The notes under the pieces are model-generated. The model had not been told where the DNA came from. It saw only the letters and a program-made list of their open reading frames with translations, and searched no databases. A stretch of DNA of 64,000 nt from Halarchaeum rubridurum (GTDB lineage Archaea; Halobacteriota; Halobacteria; Halobacteriales; Halobacteriaceae), in contig NZ_BMOO01000002.1 in NCBI RefSeq assembly GCF_014647115.1, forward strand, positions 248,001 through 312,000. Direction: 5' to 3'. Shown in pieces: positions 34,276 through 43,564 of this stretch (within the stretch, counting starts at the first letter, position 1; each line of letters starts with the position of its first letter). Both the position numbers and the translations under genes were made by a program.

Positions 34276-34374
34276 TACCGCGACGTCGCGGGCGCGGGGG
34301 CTTCGGCCCTTCGGTCGACGCCGACGGCGAGGTCTCGGGAGCCCGGTCCGGCGACCGCTCGATTCCCCCGGTCG

Positions 34375-35892
34375 CTAAACGCCGAGGTCGGTGGCGTCGC
34401 GGAGCGCGTCGACGAGGCCGGCGTCGGAGACGAGGGCGGCGGCGCGGTCGGCGGGCGAGTCGCGGTCGGCGGGGGGTGAGGGACGCGGGACCCCGGCGCG
34501 CTCGTAGAGCCCGTCCACGAAGGCGTCGCGCACGGTCGCGTTCTCGAAGACGCCGTGGAGGTACGTCCCGAGGGCGTCGGAGGTGGCGACGCTGCGCGGC
34601 CCGAGCGGGTGCGTCACGTCGGCACGCGCCGCGCCGCGGTCCGTGAGTTCGGTGCGGCCCATGTGTATCTCGTAGCCGGTCGCGGTGCCGGTCGCGCCGG
34701 CGATGGGGTCCGCGTCGACGACGTCGAGCGAGACGCGTTCGAGGTGTTTCTCGGTGCAAAAGGCGGTGATGACGGGGAGGACGCCGAACCCCGGGAGGCG
34801 CTCGACGTCGTCGGTGCTCTCGACGCCGGCGTTCGTGAGCGCCGCGCCGAGCAGCTGGTAGCCGCCGCAGAGGCCGACGACGGGGCCGTCGAAGGCACGG
34901 AGGCGGTCACCGAAGCCGGCGTCGCGGAGCGCGCGCAGGTCGTCGACGGTGTTCTTCGTGCCGGGGAGGACGACGGCGTCCGCGTCGGCGATTCGCCCGG
35001 TCGGGGGGACGTAGCGCACCCGGACGCCGGGGACGGCGGCGAGCGGTTCGAGGTCGGTGGCGTTCGAGATGCGGGGGAGGCGGACGGCGGCGACGGTGAC
35101 GCGTCGGGCGTCGGGGACGCCGTCGTCGGCACCGCGGACGGCCGACTCGTCGGCGGCGGGGAGCGAGACGCTGTCCTCCGCGGGGAGCCCCGGGTCGTCG
35201 TACGGGAGGACGGCGAGGACCGGGACGCCGGTGCGGGCCTCGATCTCCTCGATGCCGGGTTCGAGGAGCGCGGGGTCGCCGCGGAACTTCGTGATGGCGG
35301 CGCCGACGACGCGCTCGCGGACGTCGGCGGGGAGGAGTTCGAGCGTGCCGTAGAGGCTGGCGAACGCGCCGCCGCGCTCGATGTCGACGAGGACGAGCAC
35401 GTCGGCGTCCGCGACCCGCGCGGTTTCGAGGTTGGCGAGGTCCCGGTCGTGGAGGTTGATTTCGGCGATGCTGCCCGCGCCCTCGGCGACCACGACGTCG
35501 TGGGCGTCGGCGAGGAGCTCGTGGGCGGCGACGGCGGCCTCGCGGGCGCGCGACCAGTAGTCGCGGTAGTAGTCGTCGGTGTCGACGTGCGTGACGGCGC
35601 GCCCGTCGACGACGAGTTGGCTCTCCCGGTCGCCGCGGGGTTTGAGGAGGACGGGGTTGTGGTCGGTCGTGGGTGCGACCCGCGCCGCGCGGGCCTGAAC
35701 GTACTGCGAGACGCCGACTTCGCCGGGGTCACCGTCGGGCGCGGGGACGACGCGGGCGTTGTTGCTCATGTTCTGCGCCTTGTACGGCGCGACGGCGCGA
35801 CCGCGGTCGGCGAGCGCGCGACAGAGGCCGGCGACGACCGTGCTCTTGCCGACGTGGCTCGCCGTCCCGGCGACCAGGAGGGTGTTCGCCAT
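34375..35892 (-). CDS. cbiP: Cobyric acid synthase (CbiP/CobQ)
   Basis: 505 aa glutamine-dependent amidase acting on adenosylcobyrinic acid a,c-diamide. The N-terminal DTB-synthetase-like ATPase has [10 protein letters not shown] (residues 9-18) and [11 protein letters not shown]. The C-terminal class I glutaminase has the nucleophile in [10 protein letters not shown] (Cys near 341) and the histidine in YLHGVFEN (near 446). The length is normal. The ATG overlaps the stop of the adenosyltransferase gene (TGATG). It is the last gene of the ten-gene cobalamin operon. Confidence 0.93.
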
Positions 35893-36677
35893 CAGTACTC
35901 GGTGCCCTTCCGGGCGCGCCGGCCGGCGTCGATCGGGTGGGTGTGTTTTCGCACCTCGGAGACGAGGTCGGCGTGGTCGGCGAGATAGTCGGGTTCGTCG
36001 TGGCTCCCCGTGAGGACGAGTTCGAGGTCGTCGGGCTTCGAGGTCACGAGGTCGACGAGGTCGGCTTCGGCGACGAGACCGCGCGAGACGGCGTAGAGCA
36101 CCTCGTCGAGGACGAGCATGTGGACGCCGCGGTCCGCGGGCGCGTCGAGCGGGAGCGCGCCGTCGACGTCACGGGCGGCGTCGACGAGTTCGCGCGCGCG
36201 GCGGAACGCAGCGCGGGCCTCGGCGGCGTGCTCGTCCTCGTCGGACCCATCGCGGAGGCCGTGCCAGCCGTAGTGGCCGGCGTTCTCGTACGTGAACCCG
36301 GGGAGGGCGGCGATGGCGTTGTACTCGCCGCGGGTGTCCTCGACGCTGTCCGCGCCGCCCTTCATGAACTGGAGCATGTGGACGCGGTAGCCGTGGCCGG
36401 CCGCGCGGAGGCCCATCCCCATCGCGGCCGTCGTCTTGCCCTTCCCGTCGCCCCACCAGACCTGCACGAGGCCGAACTCCTCGGGGGCCGTGGGTTCGAT
36501 GGCGCGCGCGTCCGGCCGTCGGCCCTTGCCGGGCGTCGGGCGACGCGGCGCGTCCGCGGAGCCGTCGTCGTCGCGCGACGCGTCGGTCGGGCGGGCGGCC
36601 GGGCCGTCGTCAGTGCCGTCCGCTGTCCGTTCGCTCGCTGCCCCGTCGTCGTGGTCGTCGTGATCGTCGTGGCTCAT
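35892..36677 (-). CDS. cobA: Corrinoid adenosyltransferase (CobA/BtuR type)
   Basis: 261 aa. Residues 70-261 are the CobA/CobO/BtuR domain: [20 protein letters not shown] is the P-loop, then [23 protein letters not shown] and [13 protein letters not shown]. It transfers the adenosyl group of ATP to cob(I)yrinic acid diamide or cobinamide. The first 70 residues are a D/H/P-rich extension (HDDHDDHDD) absent from bacterial CobA; it may bind metal or be a halophilic tail. It is coupled by ATGA to an 81-aa gene upstream and by TGATG to cbiP downstream. Confidence 0.92.
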
Positions 36678-36919
36678 AGGTCGATGAAGGTGTCGAACGG
36701 GCCGCTCGCAGTAGAGGCGTGGCAGTGCGTCGCGAGCGTCGCGTGTTCTCGGAGGGGGTCGCGCGCGGTGGCGGCGTCGAGCGCGGCCGCGCGGGGTCGG
36801 CAGGCGGCGTCGAGCGCGGCCGCGCGGGGTCGGCAGGCGGCGAGCGCGCGACGGACCGCGAGGGTCGCGGCGGTCTCGTCCGGCCCGGAGGCCGTACCGC
36901 CGGGGACGACCCCGGTCAC
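36674..36919 (-). CDS. Small unknown protein in cobalamin operon
   Basis: 81 aa, GTG start within the stop of cbiZ (GTGA) and stop within the start of cobA (ATGA). Coupling on both sides makes a real gene very likely. It begins TGVVPGGTASGPDETAATLA, has helical Ala/Arg-rich sequence and ends [16 protein letters not shown] perfect 33-bp tandem duplication repeats the 11-residue unit ACRPRAAALDA. I recognise no family. The position suggests a small helper of CbiZ or CobA, for example a corrinoid-binding or adaptor protein. Confidence 0.7.
   Translation of the reverse strand: MTGVVPGGTASGPDETAATLAVRRALAACRPRAAALDAACRPRAAALDAATARDPLREHATLATHCHASTASGPFDTFIDL
36773..36838. repeat. 33-bp tandem duplication inside the small cobalamin-operon gene
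   Basis: Two 33-bp copies, in frame, starting GGCGTCGAGCGCGGCC. They add 11 residues to the 81-aa protein. Confidence 0.85.
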
Positions 36920-37617
36920 GGCGCGAACACCTCGGTACGGCGCGTCGTCGCCACGCCGTGTTCGGCGTCGGCCACGGAGTCGGGCGGGGCGCGTTCGGCG
37001 TACCGCGAGGCGAGGCTCGCTCGGACGGCGTCGCGGACGCACGCCCGCGCGGCCGCGCCGACGGCGGTCGCGCTGCCGGCGAACCGCGCGGGCTCCCCGT
37101 CGGGGTCGGTGCCGGCGACGACCGCGTCCGTCGTGGTGCCGGGGAAGCCGGTCTCGGCGAGGAGCGTCGCGGTCTTCGCCTCGACGGCGGTGGCGAGGAG
37201 GCCGGCGAGCGCGCCGCGGTCGAGCGAGCGCGTCGTCACGAGGAGGACGTTGACCGTCCCGGGGTGCGCCTCGGCCGTCTCGGGGACGCCGGCGTCGGCG
37301 TCGCCCGCGTCCACGGGGAGCGCGGCCGGATTGGAGACGCCGGCGGTCGCGTAGGCGATGACGGGGTCGCTGCGCGCGCCCCGGCAGTGCGCGAGGTCGA
37401 CGCCGGTGAGGAGAGCGGGCCCGGGCGCGTCGAACCGCGCGCGCTCGCGGCGGTCGGCGACGTACGCGTCGAGGTCGGTCTCGGTCCACCCCTCGGGGAC
37501 GGAGACGTTGTAGGCGGCGTCGGCGTCCCGATAGCCCCCGTCGGGGCCCGTGGAGAGCCACCGCGCCCCCTGGCGGGCGACGCGGAGGACCCCCTCGCGG
37601 ACGGTCGCCTCAGACAT
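36916..37617 (-). CDS. cbiZ: Adenosylcobinamide amidohydrolase CbiZ
   Basis: 233 aa from the ATG at 37617, overlapping the cobD stop by 8 bp; a longer open frame upstream is a shadow of cobD. Conserved CbiZ features include RWLSTGPDGGYRDADAAYNVSVPEGW, ALLTGVDLAH, VIAYATAGVSNP, GTVNVLLVTTRSL and TGFPGTTTDAVVAG (quoted in parts). The enzyme cuts the aminopropanol arm from adenosylcobinamide to return adenosylcobyric acid for CbiB, the archaeal salvage route. Its presence shows that this organism can take up incomplete corrinoids. Confidence 0.92.
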   Translation of the reverse strand: MSEATVREGVLRVARQGARWLSTGPDGGYRDADAAYNVSVPEGWTETDLDAYVADRRERARFDAPGPALLTGVDLAHCRGARSDPVIAYATAGVSNPAALPVDAGDADAGVPETAEAHPGTVNVLLVTTRSLDRGALAGLLATAVEAKTATLLAETGFPGTTTDAVVAGTDPDGEPARFAGSATAVGAAARACVRDAVRASLASRYAERAPPDSVADAEHGVATTRRTEVFAP

Positions 37618-38623
37618 CGGCGAGCACCTCGACGAGGCGGTCGTTCTCGGCGGGGCGGCGGACGGCGACGCGGACGTGCGCGTCGAGGCCGCGGAAGGTC
37701 GTCGCGTCGCGCACGGCGACCCCGCGTTCGCGCGCGCCAGCGACGACGGCGTCGACGGTCCGGTCGCCGACGTCGAGGAGCAAGAAGGGCGCGTCGGAGG
37801 GGTGGACGTCGTACCCCGCCGCGTCGAGCGCGTCGCGGAGGCGTTCGCGTTCGGCGGCGACGCGGCGGCGCGTCTCGGCGACGAAGTCGGTTCGGTCGAG
37901 GCAGTGGGTCCCGACGGCGAGCGCGGGCCGTCCGAGGTTCCACGTGCGGCGGGCACCCAGGAGCCGTTCGCGCAGGTCACCGACCGCGACGGCGTACCCG
38001 GCGCGGATGCCGGGGAGCCCGTAGAGCTTCGTGAGCGAGCGCGCGACCATCACGCCCTCGGTGCCGGCGAGCGAGGGCGTGTCCGTGTAGCCGAGGAAGG
38101 CCTCGTCGACGAGCAGGGGCGTGCCGGCGGCGCGACAGCGGGCGGCGAACGCCCGGAGGCGCTCGGGGTCCGCGCAGTCGCCCGTGGGGTTGTTCGGGGT
38201 GCAGAGGACGACGAGCGCGTGGGCGGACGGGTCGGCGTCGAGGACGGCGTCGTGGGCGACGAACGTCGGCTCCGCGCCCTGAAGGCGGACCTCGCGGGCG
38301 TACTCGGCGAAGCTCGGTTTCGGGACGAGGACGCTGTCGCCGGCGGTGACGGTGGTCTCGATACCGAGTCGGATGGCGGCGAGGCCGCCGGGAGTCGGGA
38401 CCACGTCGGCGGCGTCGCAGCCGACGACGGCGGCCGCCGCGTCGCGGTAGGCGTCCGGGGGCTCCGCCGGGTAGGTCCGTGCGGCGTCGAACGCGTCGGC
38501 GTAGACCTCGCGCGCGCCCTCGGGGACCGCGGGGTTCGTGTTCGCGCTGAAGTCGAGGACGTCGGGGTCGTCGCTGCTCCCGTGGGGGACGCGGTCGACC
38601 CCGGTCGCGGCCTCAGGGTCCAT
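37610..38623 (-). CDS. cobD: Threonine-phosphate decarboxylase CobD
   Basis: 337 aa PLP enzyme of the class I/II aminotransferase fold. It makes (R)-1-amino-2-propanol phosphate for the nucleotide-loop arm. Visible motifs: DFSANTNPAVPEG at the N-terminus, TPGGLAAIRLG, CTPNNPTGD, LLVDEAFLGY, and the PLP lysine in RSLTKLYGLPGIRAGY. The ATG at 38623 is chosen; a GTG two codons upstream also fits. It overlaps cobT by 11 bp and cbiZ by 8 bp. Confidence 0.9.
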   Translation of the reverse strand: MDPEAATGVDRVPHGSSDDPDVLDFSANTNPAVPEGAREVYADAFDAARTYPAEPPDAYRDAAAAVVGCDAADVVPTPGGLAAIRLGIETTVTAGDSVLVPKPSFAEYAREVRLQGAEPTFVAHDAVLDADPSAHALVVLCTPNNPTGDCADPERLRAFAARCRAAGTPLLVDEAFLGYTDTPSLAGTEGVMVARSLTKLYGLPGIRAGYAVAVGDLRERLLGARRTWNLGRPALAVGTHCLDRTDFVAETRRRVAAERERLRDALDAAGYDVHPSDAPFLLLDVGDRTVDAVVAGARERGVAVRDATTFRGLDAHVRVAVRRPAENDRLVEVLADV

Positions 38624-39611
38624 CGTCACCGACGAGGGCGTCGTAGCGGGCGAACAGGCGCTCGCGGACGTCGGCCATCGGGACGCCGGCGCGGTCGGCG
38701 AGGTGGAGCGCGCCGCCCATGCCGACGCCCTCCTTGGCGACGCCGGCGAGGTAGTGGTCCGTGGCGACGTGCTCGTCCGGGACGAAGCCGGGGTCGGTCA
38801 CGTGCAGGGTGACGTCGAGGGCGTCCGCGGCGGCGCGGACGTCGACGGCGTCGTCGTCCGCGATGAAGGAGGTGGTGGCGACGTCGAAGTCGGCGGTGAC
38901 GTCGGCGTGGCGCGCGAGCGTCGCCGCGGCGAGCATCTGGGTGCCGCCGGCGAGCGTCACGTCCGCGCCGCGTTCGAGCGCGCCGCGCAGGAGGCCGAGC
39001 GTGACGGCGAGCGTCGGGTCGCCCATCCGGCGAATCGCCTCGATTGGCTCCCCGGCGAGGTCGCCGGCGTCGAGACCGCTCGCGTCGAGGCCGTCCGCGA
39101 CGACCTCGCGCTTGAGCGCGAGGGGGTTCGCGGGGAGGGAGGAGGAGACGGCGTAATCGGCGCCGAGGGCGCGCAGGACGCCCATGGCGGTGGTCGTGCC
39201 GCCGGGAATCGTCTCCCCGACGACGAACTCGTCGTCGGGGTGGCCGGCGGCGTACTCGCGGGCGACGTCGTGGCGGGCGGCGGCGTCCGGGACCGGGTCG
39301 GCCGAGCGGACGTCCGCGCCGGGGTCGCTGCCGAAGCCGACGGAGGGGGCGGCGGTGCGGGCGGCGAGGCCGGCGTCGGCGACGACGACGTCGAAGCCGA
39401 GGAGGTCGCGGACGGCGCGCGTCACGAGGCCGGGGGTCGGGCACCCCTCGGGGCTGACGGGGACGATGGGGGCGAACACGGGCCGGCCGTAGGCGACGAG
39501 CTCGGCGTCGGCGGCGGGCGTGTGCGCCATGAGGGCGGGCGTCTCGCCGGCGGCGCTGATGCCGTCGATGCCCGCGGTCTCGGTCGTCCCGGCGACGAGG
39601 ACGAACGTCAC
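38613..39611 (-). CDS. cobT: Archaeal-type CobT (UPF0284), NaMN:base phosphoribosyltransferase
   Basis: 332 aa, GTG start inside the cobY stop (GTGA). It lacks close similarity to short bacterial CobT motifs but matches the archaeal UPF0284 form: SPEGCPTPGLVTRAV, GETIPGGTTTAMGVLRALG, AGGTQMLAAATLARH and EGVGMGGALHLADRAGV. The reaction activates the lower-ligand base as its riboside phosphate from nicotinate mononucleotide. All neighbours are cobalamin genes, which supports the assignment. Confidence 0.9.
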   Translation of the reverse strand: MTFVLVAGTTETAGIDGISAAGETPALMAHTPAADAELVAYGRPVFAPIVPVSPEGCPTPGLVTRAVRDLLGFDVVVADAGLAARTAAPSVGFGSDPGADVRSADPVPDAAARHDVAREYAAGHPDDEFVVGETIPGGTTTAMGVLRALGADYAVSSSLPANPLALKREVVADGLDASGLDAGDLAGEPIEAIRRMGDPTLAVTLGLLRGALERGADVTLAGGTQMLAAATLARHADVTADFDVATTSFIADDDAVDVRAAADALDVTLHVTDPGFVPDEHVATDHYLAGVAKEGVGMGGALHLADRAGVPMADVRERLFARYDALVGDDGP

Positions 39612-40180
39612 AGCAGGGCCTCCGCGACTGCGGCGTCTCGGCGGCGGTTCACGTTCACGGCGTAGCGAACGTCGTACGACAGCAACACGGTTTCGGTGTC
39701 CCCGTCCGCGACGACGTTGACGCCGGTCGGGGCGACCTCGCGGCCGTCGCGCTCGTAGGTCGTGTCGGCGCTGACGCCGAGGTGGCGTTTGAGTGCGGCG
39801 GGAACGCAGACCTGCACGCCGGGGCCGTCGGCGGCGTCCGCGGAGACGTCGAGGACGCGGTTCACCGACGCCGCGTCGAGCAGGGGGAGGTCGGCGGCGA
39901 CCGTCAGAACGGGCGATTCGAGCGTATCAAGCGCCGCGCCGAGGTCCGCGACGTACCCCTCGCCGGGCGTCTCGATCAGCGAGACGCCGCGGTCGTCGAG
40001 GTGCGCGGCCGTCTCGGGGGCGTGCGGGCTGACCGCGGCGTGCGTCGTCTCGACGCGGCTGGCCGCAAGCGCGTCCGCGACGCGCTCGACCATCGGGACG
40101 CCGGCGACGCGGGAGAGCGGTTTCTCCGCCGTCGCGTCGAGTCGGGTGCCCCGGCCGCCGCACATCACCAGGCCGTCCAC
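39608..40180 (-). CDS. cobY: Adenosylcobinamide-phosphate guanylyltransferase CobY
   Basis: 190 aa nucleotidyltransferase that replaces bacterial CobU in archaea, making AdoCbi-GDP from GTP. The N-terminus VDGLVMCGGRGTRLD (residues 1-15) with EKPL is the nucleotide-binding signature, which fixes the GTG start at 40180 even though this overlaps cobS by 16 bp. Later come LTVAADLPLLDA (the metal-binding aspartate region) and VAPTGVNVV. An internal ATG at 40165 would remove the first beta strand. Confidence 0.91.
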   Translation of the reverse strand: MDGLVMCGGRGTRLDATAEKPLSRVAGVPMVERVADALAASRVETTHAAVSPHAPETAAHLDDRGVSLIETPGEGYVADLGAALDTLESPVLTVAADLPLLDAASVNRVLDVSADAADGPGVQVCVPAALKRHLGVSADTTYERDGREVAPTGVNVVADGDTETVLLSYDVRYAVNVNRRRDAAVAEALL

Positions 40181-40932
40181 GCGACCACCCCCGCGAAGAG
40201 CGCGGCGAGGCGAGCGAGTTCGTTCGCGCCGCCGAGGACGTCGCCGCTGACGCCGCCGAGCCGTCGGGTCGCCCACGCGCGGACGCAGAGCGCGGTGCAG
40301 AGGGCCGCGACGAGGGCGAGCACCCCTGCGGGCGTCGGCCACGCGAGGAGGGCGGCGGGGAGCGAGACGGCGACCGGGAGCGCGAGCGAGCGCGCGTCGA
40401 GGTCGCCGGCGACGGCGGAGCCGAGGCCCTCGTGAGCGGGGTCGCCGAGGCAGGCGACGGCGGCCACGGCGAGTTTCGCGCCGACCTCGGCGGTGACGAC
40501 GAGCGCGAGCGCGCGGAGTGGGAGCGCGGCGAGGGTGGAGCCGAGGGCGAACAGGCCGAGGAGGACGAGGCCGAGGGCGAGTGCGCCGCCGACACCGACC
40601 GTCGTGTCCGTCATGACCTCGCGGCGTTCGGCGGGCGTACCGTGGACGACGGCGGCGTCGCCGAGGTCGGTGATCGCGTCGGCGTGCGGGATGCCGGTGA
40701 CGACGTAGACCCAGCAGACGAAGGCGAACGCGGCGAGCGAAGGGGAGAGTGGGAGCGCGAGCGGGAGTGCGAGCGCGACGCCGATGGGGTAGCCGGCGAG
40801 CGGGAAGGCGACGGGGGTCGCGCGGAAGGCGTCCCAGGCGGCCCGGTCGTGACCGACCGGCGCGCGCGTGAGGAACCCGAGCGCGCCACGGAGGGCGCGG
40901 GCGACGCGGCGGACCGGCGCGCTCAGACCCAC
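40165..40932 (-). CDS. cobS: Cobalamin synthase CobS
   Basis: 255 aa integral membrane enzyme joining AdoCbi-GDP to alpha-ribazole (phosphate). It has about seven hydrophobic helices. The conserved region FLTRAPVGHDRAAW and the acidic metal-binding motif TGIPHADAITDLGDA match CobS. Near the C-terminus, RLGGVSGDVLGGANELARL is also diagnostic. The GTG at 40932 overlaps the cbiB stop by 10 bp; another GTG two codons earlier is possible. Confidence 0.91.
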   Translation of the reverse strand: MGLSAPVRRVARALRGALGFLTRAPVGHDRAAWDAFRATPVAFPLAGYPIGVALALPLALPLSPSLAAFAFVCWVYVVTGIPHADAITDLGDAAVVHGTPAERREVMTDTTVGVGGALALGLVLLGLFALGSTLAALPLRALALVVTAEVGAKLAVAAVACLGDPAHEGLGSAVAGDLDARSLALPVAVSLPAALLAWPTPAGVLALVAALCTALCVRAWATRRLGGVSGDVLGGANELARLAALFAGVVAWTAW

Positions 40933-41840
40933 GCGCACACCCCCGTGAGGGCGACGCCGAGGACGGCGGCGCGGTCGACGATTCGGACGCCGCGCCGGGC
41001 GCGCTCGGGCGTCGGCGGGTCGGCGGTCGGGTGCAGCGCGTAGACGCCGGGTTTGGCGAGGCGGACGTCGAGGACGGCGGCGAGCGTGGCCATCGGCCAC
41101 CCGGAGTTCGGCGACGGCGGGTCGCGCGCCCACGCGGCGGCCCGATGGAGGGCCCCGATGTCGCCGCCGGCGACGGCGAGGAGAAACGCGCTGACGCGCG
41201 CCGGGAGCCACATGACGGCGTCGTCGAGCCGCGCGCTCGCCGTGCCGTGGGGCTTCGAGGGGTAGCCGAGCATGGAGTCGAGCGTGTTGACGGCCTTCAC
41301 CCACGCGGCGGCGGCCGCCGCGACGGGGAGCGACACCTGCGCGCCGAGCGCGAACGCGGTGAGCGGCGCGACGAGGCCGTCGGCGAGGTTCTCGGCCGCG
41401 CTCTCGACGGCCGCGCTGCGGAGGTCGGCGACGGAGAGCGAGTCGGTGTCGCGCCCGACGAGCGCGCGGACGTCGTCGCGGGCCGCGTCGGGGTCGTCGG
41501 CCAGCGTGGCGAGGACGTCGGCGGCGGTGCTGACGAGCGCGCGGCGACTCGACGCGACGAAGACCCAGAGTCCCGCGACGGCGGCGCCCGCGGCGAGAGC
41601 GGCGGGGCCGGCGACGAGCAGCGACGGAAGGGCGACGCTCGCGGCGACGACGGCGGCCGCGGCGAGCGGGAGGGCGAACGCGACGAGCGCACCGGCGAGT
41701 CGGGGGTGTCGCCACGGCCGGTCGGCGCGGCCGACGGCGCGCCCGAACCACGCGACCGGGTGGAAGCGGGTGGACGGTTCGCCGACGAGCGCGTCGAGCG
41801 CGACGCCGAGCGCGAGTGCGAGGGCGGCGGCGACGCTCAC
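40923..41840 (-). CDS. cbiB: Adenosylcobinamide-phosphate synthase CbiB
   Basis: 305 aa membrane protein that joins adenosylcobyric acid to aminopropanol phosphate. Signatures: DALVGEPSTRFHPVAWFGRAVG near the N-terminus (in parts), VGRDTDSLS, AVESAAENLADGLVAPL, KAVNTLDSMLGY, and RDPPSPNSGWPMATLAAVL. The GTG start is inside the stop of the HAD gene (GTGA). In haloarchaea CbiB is needed both for new synthesis and for cobinamide salvage with CbiZ. Confidence 0.93.
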   Translation of the reverse strand: MSVAAALALALGVALDALVGEPSTRFHPVAWFGRAVGRADRPWRHPRLAGALVAFALPLAAAAVVAASVALPSLLVAGPAALAAGAAVAGLWVFVASSRRALVSTAADVLATLADDPDAARDDVRALVGRDTDSLSVADLRSAAVESAAENLADGLVAPLTAFALGAQVSLPVAAAAAAWVKAVNTLDSMLGYPSKPHGTASARLDDAVMWLPARVSAFLLAVAGGDIGALHRAAAWARDPPSPNSGWPMATLAAVLDVRLAKPGVYALHPTADPPTPERARRGVRIVDRAAVLGVALTGVCAWV

Positions 41841-42478
41841 CGCGTCTCACCGAGTCTGTCGGGGAGGGCGGCGAGCGGCGTCTCGTCGACGAGGATGCCG
41901 TGCGCGCCGGCGGCGTCCGCGCCGCCGTCGGTCCGCGGGTCGTCGCCGACGTGGCGGAGGTCGGCGAGCGGGACGTCGAGGCGGCCGGCGACGGCCGCGA
42001 ACGCCCGACGGTCGGGTTTCCGCCAGCCGCAGGCGACGCTGGTGACGATTTCGTCGAAGGCGTCGGCGTCGAGGGCGGAGCGGCGGAGCGCGCGGCGGAC
42101 GAGGCCGGGGACGCTGCAGTTCGAGAGGACGCAGACGGGGCCGACGCGCGCCGCGGCGCGGACGGCGTCGGGGGCGTCGGGGTGGGTGTCGACGTCGGTC
42201 GGGTCGAAGGCGGCGACGACGGCGCGCCGGACGGCGTTCCCGTGTCCGTCGCCGTCGGTCGGGTCGACACCGCGGCTCCGCAGGGCGGCGGCGACGTGCG
42301 CGGGGAGGGGGAGTTCGGCCCCGTCGGGGACGTCGACGTGCGGTTCGCGGTACGCGCTCGCCCAGTCGGTGGGGACAGTGACGTCGCGCGCGTCGAGTTC
42401 GGCCGCGACTGCGGCGGCCGGGTCGGCCGGCCGGGGGACGGAGAGGAGCGTGTCGAAGAGGTCGAAGGAGGTTGCCAT
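41837..42478 (-). CDS. HAD-superfamily hydrolase, first gene of cobalamin operon
   Basis: 213 aa. HAD motif I is FDLFDTLLS (nucleophile Asp6, Asp in position +3 is D), motif II VLSNCS, motif III KPDRRAF with the lysine, and motif IV HVGDDPRTDGG. The small helical cap is of the haloacid-dehalogenase type. It is coupled to cbiB by GTGA. The pathway needs a phosphatase for alpha-ribazole phosphate or adenosylcobalamin phosphate, and no CobC or CobZ is present here, so this enzyme is a reasonable candidate. The substrate is inferred from context alone. Confidence 0.82.
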   Translation of the reverse strand: MATSFDLFDTLLSVPRPADPAAAVAAELDARDVTVPTDWASAYREPHVDVPDGAELPLPAHVAAALRSRGVDPTDGDGHGNAVRRAVVAAFDPTDVDTHPDAPDAVRAAARVGPVCVLSNCSVPGLVRRALRRSALDADAFDEIVTSVACGWRKPDRRAFAAVAGRLDVPLADLRHVGDDPRTDGGADAAGAHGILVDETPLAALPDRLGETR

Positions 42479-42840
42479 CGGTGAGCGGTGGTGTGGTCGT
42501 GGTGGAGCGCTCGGGCGCGCGTCCGGGGTCGTCGAAAGGGAGGGCACAGCGGGCCAAGAAGGTTGTCGATGACCGGCGTCGACGGCGCCCGACGGCTGTG
42601 CGACGGTCGATGCTCGACCGACCGGCGTACGGGACGACCCGTCGAAGGACCGGGCGGGTGTCACGGCCGTCGATACCGTCGCCGGACGCGTCGTGCTCCG
42701 GGGTACGACCGCGAGCGCTCACGCGTGGCTCTCCCGGCGGGTCGCCCGCCCCGAGCGGACGGACCGAGCGGAGCGAACGACGCCGCCCCGAACACCGGCC
42801 GGGGGTGTCGGGGCTCGTGGATGTCGGTCCGGCCCCCGGT
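42479..42840. other. Upstream region of the cobalamin operon, no gene seen
   Basis: About 360 bp of GC-rich sequence. I looked for a B12-riboswitch core and a clear TATA box for the minus-strand operon and found neither. The operon promoter must lie here, or the leader is long. No frame looks coding. Confidence 0.4.
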
Positions 42841-42851
42841 TCGGCAACAAC

Positions 42852-43052
42852 TTTTTTATCAAAGAACCCGTACTGATAACCGTCATCCCAAGGGGGATGG
42901 GGCTGCTGAGTGGCCCGCCGGTGGGTGACGACCCGCGATTGGTTCACCGGACGCCACAACCACGCTACCGGTGCGGGACGACGCGCCCCTCGGTACAGCA
43001 AGAAGTCTGGAGGCATTCCATTGCATCCCGCCCCACTGCGGGCGGGGACTTC
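42852..43052 (+). ncRNA. Candidate structured RNA or IS200/IS605-derived mini-element
   Basis: A strong TATA-like box TTTTTTATC (42852-42860) is followed 24 nt later by a run of hairpins: CATCCC/GGGATG (42884-42899, loop AAGG), CCGGTG/CACCGG (42918-42950) enclosing GGGT-GACG-ACCC, and finally an outer stem GAAGTC/GACTTC (43002-43052) around a perfect CCCGCCC/GGGCGGG hairpin (43027-43046). No reading frame fits. The layout could be a small RNA gene, or left and right hairpin ends of an IS200/IS605-type element without transposase (PATE). It matches no RNA family I know. Confidence 0.4.
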
Positions 43053-43112
43053 CACACGTCCGAGCGACGCGTCCGTCGACCAGCTCCTCGACGGCGACGA
43101 CGGGCCCGTGTG

Positions 43113-43118
43113 TTTATG
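43113..43118 (+). promoter_or_regulatory. TATA-type promoter of universal stress protein gene
   Basis: TTTATG lies 24-29 nt before the GTG start at 43142, consistent with a leaderless transcript. Confidence 0.5.
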
Positions 43119-43141
43119 CGCTGGCGGCCGTAGCGGGGTGC

Positions 43142-43564
43142 GTGTACGACGAGATACTCGTTCCGACGGACGGGAGCCCCGAAGCGGAGGCGGCCGTCGA
43201 GCACGCCGTCGACATCGCGGCGACGTACGGCGCGCGGATTCACGCGCTCTACGTCGTCGACACGAGCCCGTACGCGACGTTGGACGCGACGGAGACGGTC
43301 GTGGAGGACCTGGAGGACGAGGGCGAGGACGCGGTCGAATACGTCACGACGGCCGCGGCGGACGCGGGCGTCGAGGCGCGCAGCACGATAACGAACGGGA
43401 ACGTCCACGAGGCGATTACGACGTACGCGCGGGCCAACGACATCGACCTCATCGTCATGGGGACGCACGGCCGTCGCGGCCTCGGGCGGGTGCTCGTCGG
43501 GAGCGTCACCGAGCGCGTCGTCCGAACCGCCGACGTACCCGTGTTGACGGTTCGAAGCGGGTGA
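43142..43564 (+). CDS. Universal stress protein, UspA family
   Basis: 140 aa from GTG (YDEILVPTDGSPEAEAAV). It has the complete ATP-binding type signature GTHGRRGLGRVLVGSVTERV (about 109-128, G-x2-G-x9-G-S/T) and ends VRTADVPVLTVRSG. A longer open frame upstream runs through the structured element and is not coding. Haloarchaea carry many such single-domain proteins, whose roles in stress or metabolism are mostly unknown. It is monocistronic. Confidence 0.88.
   Translation: MYDEILVPTDGSPEAEAAVEHAVDIAATYGARIHALYVVDTSPYATLDATETVVEDLEDEGEDAVEYVTTAAADAGVEARSTITNGNVHEAITTYARANDIDLIVMGTHGRRGLGRVLVGSVTERVVRTADVPVLTVRSG

Follow-up and report, generated by a model that had tools for sequence, protein, structure and literature searches.

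The 64-kb stretch of DNA analysed here (the window) contains, at 42842–43056 on the + strand, a conserved unit that we consider likely, judging from its sequence, to be a lineage-restricted, independently transcribed gene for a structured intergenic small RNA (sRNA), with a predicted RNA of about 170–175 nt. All features described below are on the + strand, and the unit comprises a promoter followed by the putative RNA. An earlier note on this DNA had raised the possibility of a new small RNA, and this reading is strengthened by a promoter conserved beside a drifting spacer, by conservation of the transcribed part, by pair-preserving changes in hairpin P2, and by the different neighbours of the element in a second species of the genus.

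Promoter, extent and predicted fold

The limits of the unit are the edges of its alignment with a single relative in one other same-genus genome, G001, which we equate with Halarchaeum acidiphilum (L002:1499-1712(-), on contig 133; 84% identity over 214 bp, E 1e-56). The aligned edges are sharp, with GCAACAA at the left and CTTCCAC at the right, and the flanks are at chance, the 100 bp on the left scoring about 0.9 SD and the 80 bp on the right about 1.7 SD above shuffled sequence.

At the left end is a BRE/TATA promoter element, GCAACAACTTTTTTAT (42844–42859), which includes the TATA-like sequence TTTTTTAT (42852–42859). This is its sole occurrence on both strands of the window, where the expected count is 0.00 (100 dinucleotide shuffles of the window). 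In haloarchaea, transcription is expected to start about 27–28 nt past the centre of the TATA box; counting about 27 nt from the centre of TTTTTTAT leads to about 42882, right before P1, which begins at 42884. The earlier note's TATA-like box, spaced for initiation at the first hairpin, is thus correctly placed. With the A-rich stretch upstream, TTTTTTAT fits the TTWT promoter motif of haloarchaea given in PMC4983044, and the haloarchaeal BRE consensus CGAAA has no exact match in the element's promoter. Scans for bacterial-type promoters and terminators, which are built for bacteria and not for archaea, returned no site and no terminator-like match.

The predicted fold opens with P1 (42884–42899), a 6-bp hairpin (CATCCC/GGGATG) with pair probabilities of 0.94–0.96, which would sit at the 5' end of a transcript starting at about 42882. 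It is followed by P2 (42900–42916), a 7-bp hairpin (GGGCTGC/GTGGCCC), and the RNA is closed by a 3' domain (43002–43052) in which the 6-bp outer stem P5 (GAAGTC/GACTTC, 43002–43007 with 43047–43052) encloses the 7-bp hairpin P6 (CCCGCCC/GGGCGGG, 43027–43046), together with a conserved segment, ATTCCATTGCAT. Ensemble pair probabilities are 0.83 or more for P1, P2, P5 and P6, and the final outer stem around a 7-bp GC hairpin proposed in the earlier note is therefore well supported. In the conserved core between these parts (42936–42977), a CACCGG/CCGGTG stem (42945–42950 with 42968–42973) can form around the loop ACGCCACAACCACGCTA, with pair probabilities of 0.46–0.54 and of 0.07 for the outermost pair. 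Of the independent stems previously proposed, P1 and P2 are thus well determined, and the middle one is present as a pairing that is not settled. CACCGG has two possible partners, CCGGTG at 42968–42973 and CCGGTG at 42918–42923. The stretch 42952–42963 has the highest unpaired value (0.80) among the 12-nt stretches printed.

Folding alone proves nothing, because the stability is ordinary for this composition. The fold has a z of −0.93 relative to shuffles, 36 of 200 being as good, and the trimmed element has a z of −0.66 (47/200); the opposite strand gives a slightly better value (z −1.75; 9/200).

Conservation between two species

Conservation between the two species is distributed in blocks. 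The promoter element is 15/16 identical and the spacer that follows it (42860–42881) only 10/22, with one 1-nt gap; that the promoter is kept while the spacer next to it drifts speaks for transcription in the + direction. Within the putative RNA, the P1 region (42882–42899) is identical at 17/18 positions, the P2 region at 11/20 and 42918–42935 at 15/19. The core is 41/42 identical, followed by 42978–42998 (17/21), 42999–43008 (9/10) and the variable 43009–43014 (2/6), and the 3' block (43015–43048) and the end (43049–43055) are identical at 33/34 and 7/7 positions. Long unchanged blocks of non-coding DNA imply constraint, because the USP genes of the window and of H. acidiphilum are only 82% identical.

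The earlier note had suggested a search for compensatory changes in relatives, and would have counted an absence of structural conservation against itself. The prediction of P2 used the window sequence only, and in H. acidiphilum four of its seven pairs differ, all of them standard and one changed on both sides. All seven pairs are thus retained despite five substitutions in the stem, an outcome that random substitutions reach in 0.7% of trials, or in 17.5% if transitions only are allowed. A covariation shuffle test has no power with two sequences only, and 247 of 500 shuffles score at least as high as the real alignment. Of the 54 pairs in the window-only fold, ten differ in H. acidiphilum and three of these ten break, and the middle domain of the relative folds differently; we therefore claim P1, P2, P5 and P6, which are retained in both species (two sequences only), and leave the middle aside.

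Distribution and alternative readings

The element is present as a single copy in its own genome and within the window, and among the four same-genus genomes it is found in this one and in H. acidiphilum. The other two, G002 and G003, have only matches of about 16–34 nt, and a model search of their syntenic stretches with filters off gave partial, low scores (best E 0.023). A scan of the genome collection with a 21-nt piece of the core returned one record, H. acidiphilum NZ_BATA01000033.1. More widely, a model search of 98 relatives (E ≤ 1) recovered both known copies together with seven matches that were short or weak, the best at 0.039. In 391 genomes of the class, a sample without the H. 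acidiphilum genome, the copy in the window's own genome was the only one found at E ≤ 0.01, with none in the other 390; because such searches evaluate only a few candidates in each genome, a very diverged relative could escape them. A 25-nt core pattern with three mismatches allowed occurs in its own genome and in two others of the 391, one of the two extra matches falling within a reading frame; in each of these two genomes the model detects that short stretch and no more. The weak matches in other Halobacteria span 16–47 nt each, and the five that we examined resemble, on visual inspection, GC-rich coding DNA.

Searches of reference collections were also negative. At the gathering score, Rfam has no family match to the element in a search of the whole window, and with E up to 5 across 42700–43200 it yields a single weak match, to a snoRNA family, that lies outside the element; no tRNA or tmRNA was found. 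Plasmid and phage collections have no match. Exact patterns occur in 0, 1, 5, 5 and 0 stretches of viral contigs, and a model search of these 11 stretches gave a best E of 0.35. We found no paper linking Halarchaeum acidiphilum with a small RNA, and no small-RNA title is among the matches listed for literature naming Halarchaeum.

The unit could instead be a non-autonomous mobile element (an IS200/605-type PATE or other MITE) mobilized by a transposase in trans, with P1 and P5/P6 as near-terminal palindromes. This would account for its different genomic places in the two species and for the sharp edges of the alignment, the genome carries TnpB genes, and the Haloquadratum PATEs described in PMC3119063 have near-terminal palindromes without terminal inverted repeats or target duplication. 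We nonetheless regard it as unlikely, since there is one copy per genome and the ends do not fit. In G003, two TnpB elements that are 91% identical over 1401 bp define such ends: the left one has TTCAC and, starting about 19 nt inward, a palindrome, and at the right one GATTTAC comes after a palindrome. For other TnpB elements in the genus the terminal sequence is GTAGTTCAC or GATTCAC; the stop codon and following sequence were surveyed for five of 20 loci, and four of the five have such an end. The element starts with GCAACAA and ends with GACTTCCAC, and on neither strand does it show TTCAC and a palindrome at one end with a palindrome and TTTAC or TTCAC at the other. No match better than E 0.13 was obtained to the 20 TnpB loci compared, which are among 44 TnpB matches listed, and a hairpin element acting as DNA would have no use for a promoter retained while the adjacent spacer drifts. 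The transposase-less IS200/IS605 derivative offered as a second option in the earlier note is thus unsupported, and the search for further genome copies that it recommended gave the single copy that it had named as counting against it. G002 and G003 lack the element, but there are larger rearrangements around both places and no clean empty site. Matches to the TnpB zinc-binding domain number 10–13 in each of the four genomes.

The neighbourhoods differ between the two species. In the window, a HAD-like gene and cobalamin genes such as CbiB lie upstream on the opposite strand, and a USP gene begins at 43142 on the same strand, 86 nt past the element. In H. acidiphilum an HTH_10 gene on the same strand ends 83 nt before the copy, and a convergent DAO/GCV_T (dimethylglycine-dehydrogenase-like) gene has its 3' end towards it, so that the copy is no gene's leader there. 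With no directly shared neighbour between the two species, a cis role for any one neighbour is improbable. The same-strand position 86 nt upstream of the USP gene might suggest a long structured 5' leader or riboswitch of that gene, a reading to which we give very little credence: the USP homology to H. acidiphilum and G002 begins at about 43110 and includes the gene's own TATA-like box shortly before the start codon, as is seen in both species, G002 keeps the USP gene without the element, and 15 kb separate the two in H. acidiphilum. The USP gene of the window looks leaderless (43110–43142), with TTTATGC some 24 nt before its GTG start, and the H. acidiphilum homologue has TTTATAC before ATG.

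A USP homologue is nonetheless found downstream of the element in the same orientation in both genomes, at 86 nt in the window and at about 15 kb in H. acidiphilum, which hints at vertical descent. By our own post hoc estimate, the chance of a USP gene lying downstream within about 15 kb in the same orientation is about 0.6%, and the shared order favours descent followed by rearrangement rather than two separate insertions. The lack of the element in G002 and G003 nonetheless weighs against the sRNA reading, G002 being closer to the window than H. acidiphilum is at the USP gene (89% vs 82%). In G002 the USP region follows sequence matching the window near 34318. An 8.8-kb block of the window (34318–43110), with cobalamin genes and the element, is absent at this place in G002; G003 keeps the cobalamin block elsewhere without the element and has other genes after HAD. 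The intergenic region after DAO/GCV_T in G002 (L095:1240-1480 (-)) contains ACACAACCACAA and GGTAGCGTGG, which are reminiscent of the core, and a model search of this region gave no real match to the element. In H. acidiphilum the DAO/GCV_T frame (L060:4362-7388) shifts near its end relative to G002 and runs through the element's opposite strand, reflecting either a frameshift or an assembly error.

Least plausible, and barely credible, is the reading as a gene for a small protein, or what is left of one, on either strand: although the opposite strand of the H. acidiphilum copy has an open frame of 73 residues, a 2-nt indel interrupts it in the window, the conserved promoter points the other way, third-position bias is absent, and five frames tried against Pfam at E 1 gave no match. 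The RNA part also contains indels of 2, 1 and 2 nt, and its substitutions are spread 9/11/13 over positions modulo 3, both of which argue against coding. The description of the element as lacking an ORF was right in substance; its open frames arise by chance in GC-rich DNA and none is retained between the two species.

Proposed action and relation to known RNAs

Taking the element as an sRNA gene, the archaeal BRE/TATA promoter at 42844–42859 would start transcription near 42882 and give a structured RNA of about 170–175 nt ending near 43055, with P1 and P5/P6 protecting its ends. It would act in trans, most likely, by analogy with archaeal sRNAs in general, through base pairs that mRNAs form with the conserved, exposed loop CGCCACAACCAC and possibly also with ATTCCATTGCAT. 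A two-state middle domain is possible, because CACCGG can pair with either CCGGTG. In one more speculative version, which we think doubtful, the element represents a Halarchaeum-confined new class of structured RNA in which the invariant segment GGTTCACCGG swaps between its upstream and downstream CCGGTG partners, exposing or hiding the loop CGCCACAACCAC, and would be a two-state regulator and not a plain antisense sRNA.

The proposed sRNA gene resembles the intergenic sRNAs of Haloferax volcanii, such as sRNA132 (PMC6560208), in being a stand-alone intergenic gene with a TATA-type promoter and no conserved ORF. Its intergenic position without a conserved ORF and its own archaeal promoter agree with the promoter features and class traits of haloarchaeal sRNAs in PMC4983044 and PMC5867862. 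Class-wide searches show no relative of the element, and the likeness is one of class features and not of catalogue entries compared one by one. The haloarchaeal PATEs and IS605-type elements (PMC3119063) are similarly short and non-coding with palindromes towards both ends; the element differs in its single copy, its terminal sequences and its blockwise, RNA-like conservation. It would be a structured non-coding RNA gene like those of archaeal SRP RNA and RNase P RNA, each of which is present once elsewhere in the genome, whereas the element has no Rfam match.

Most of what is known of haloarchaeal sRNAs comes from catalogues of transcripts. The element probably adds to the haloarchaeal intergenic sRNAs, a known kind. 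Its promoter is sharp and its edges are fixed, its exposed loop is invariant, and it can be compared with the copy in a second species, so that the structure and target of this defined gene would be directly amenable to study. Its patchy occurrence inside one genus would make it a case of sRNA gain or loss.
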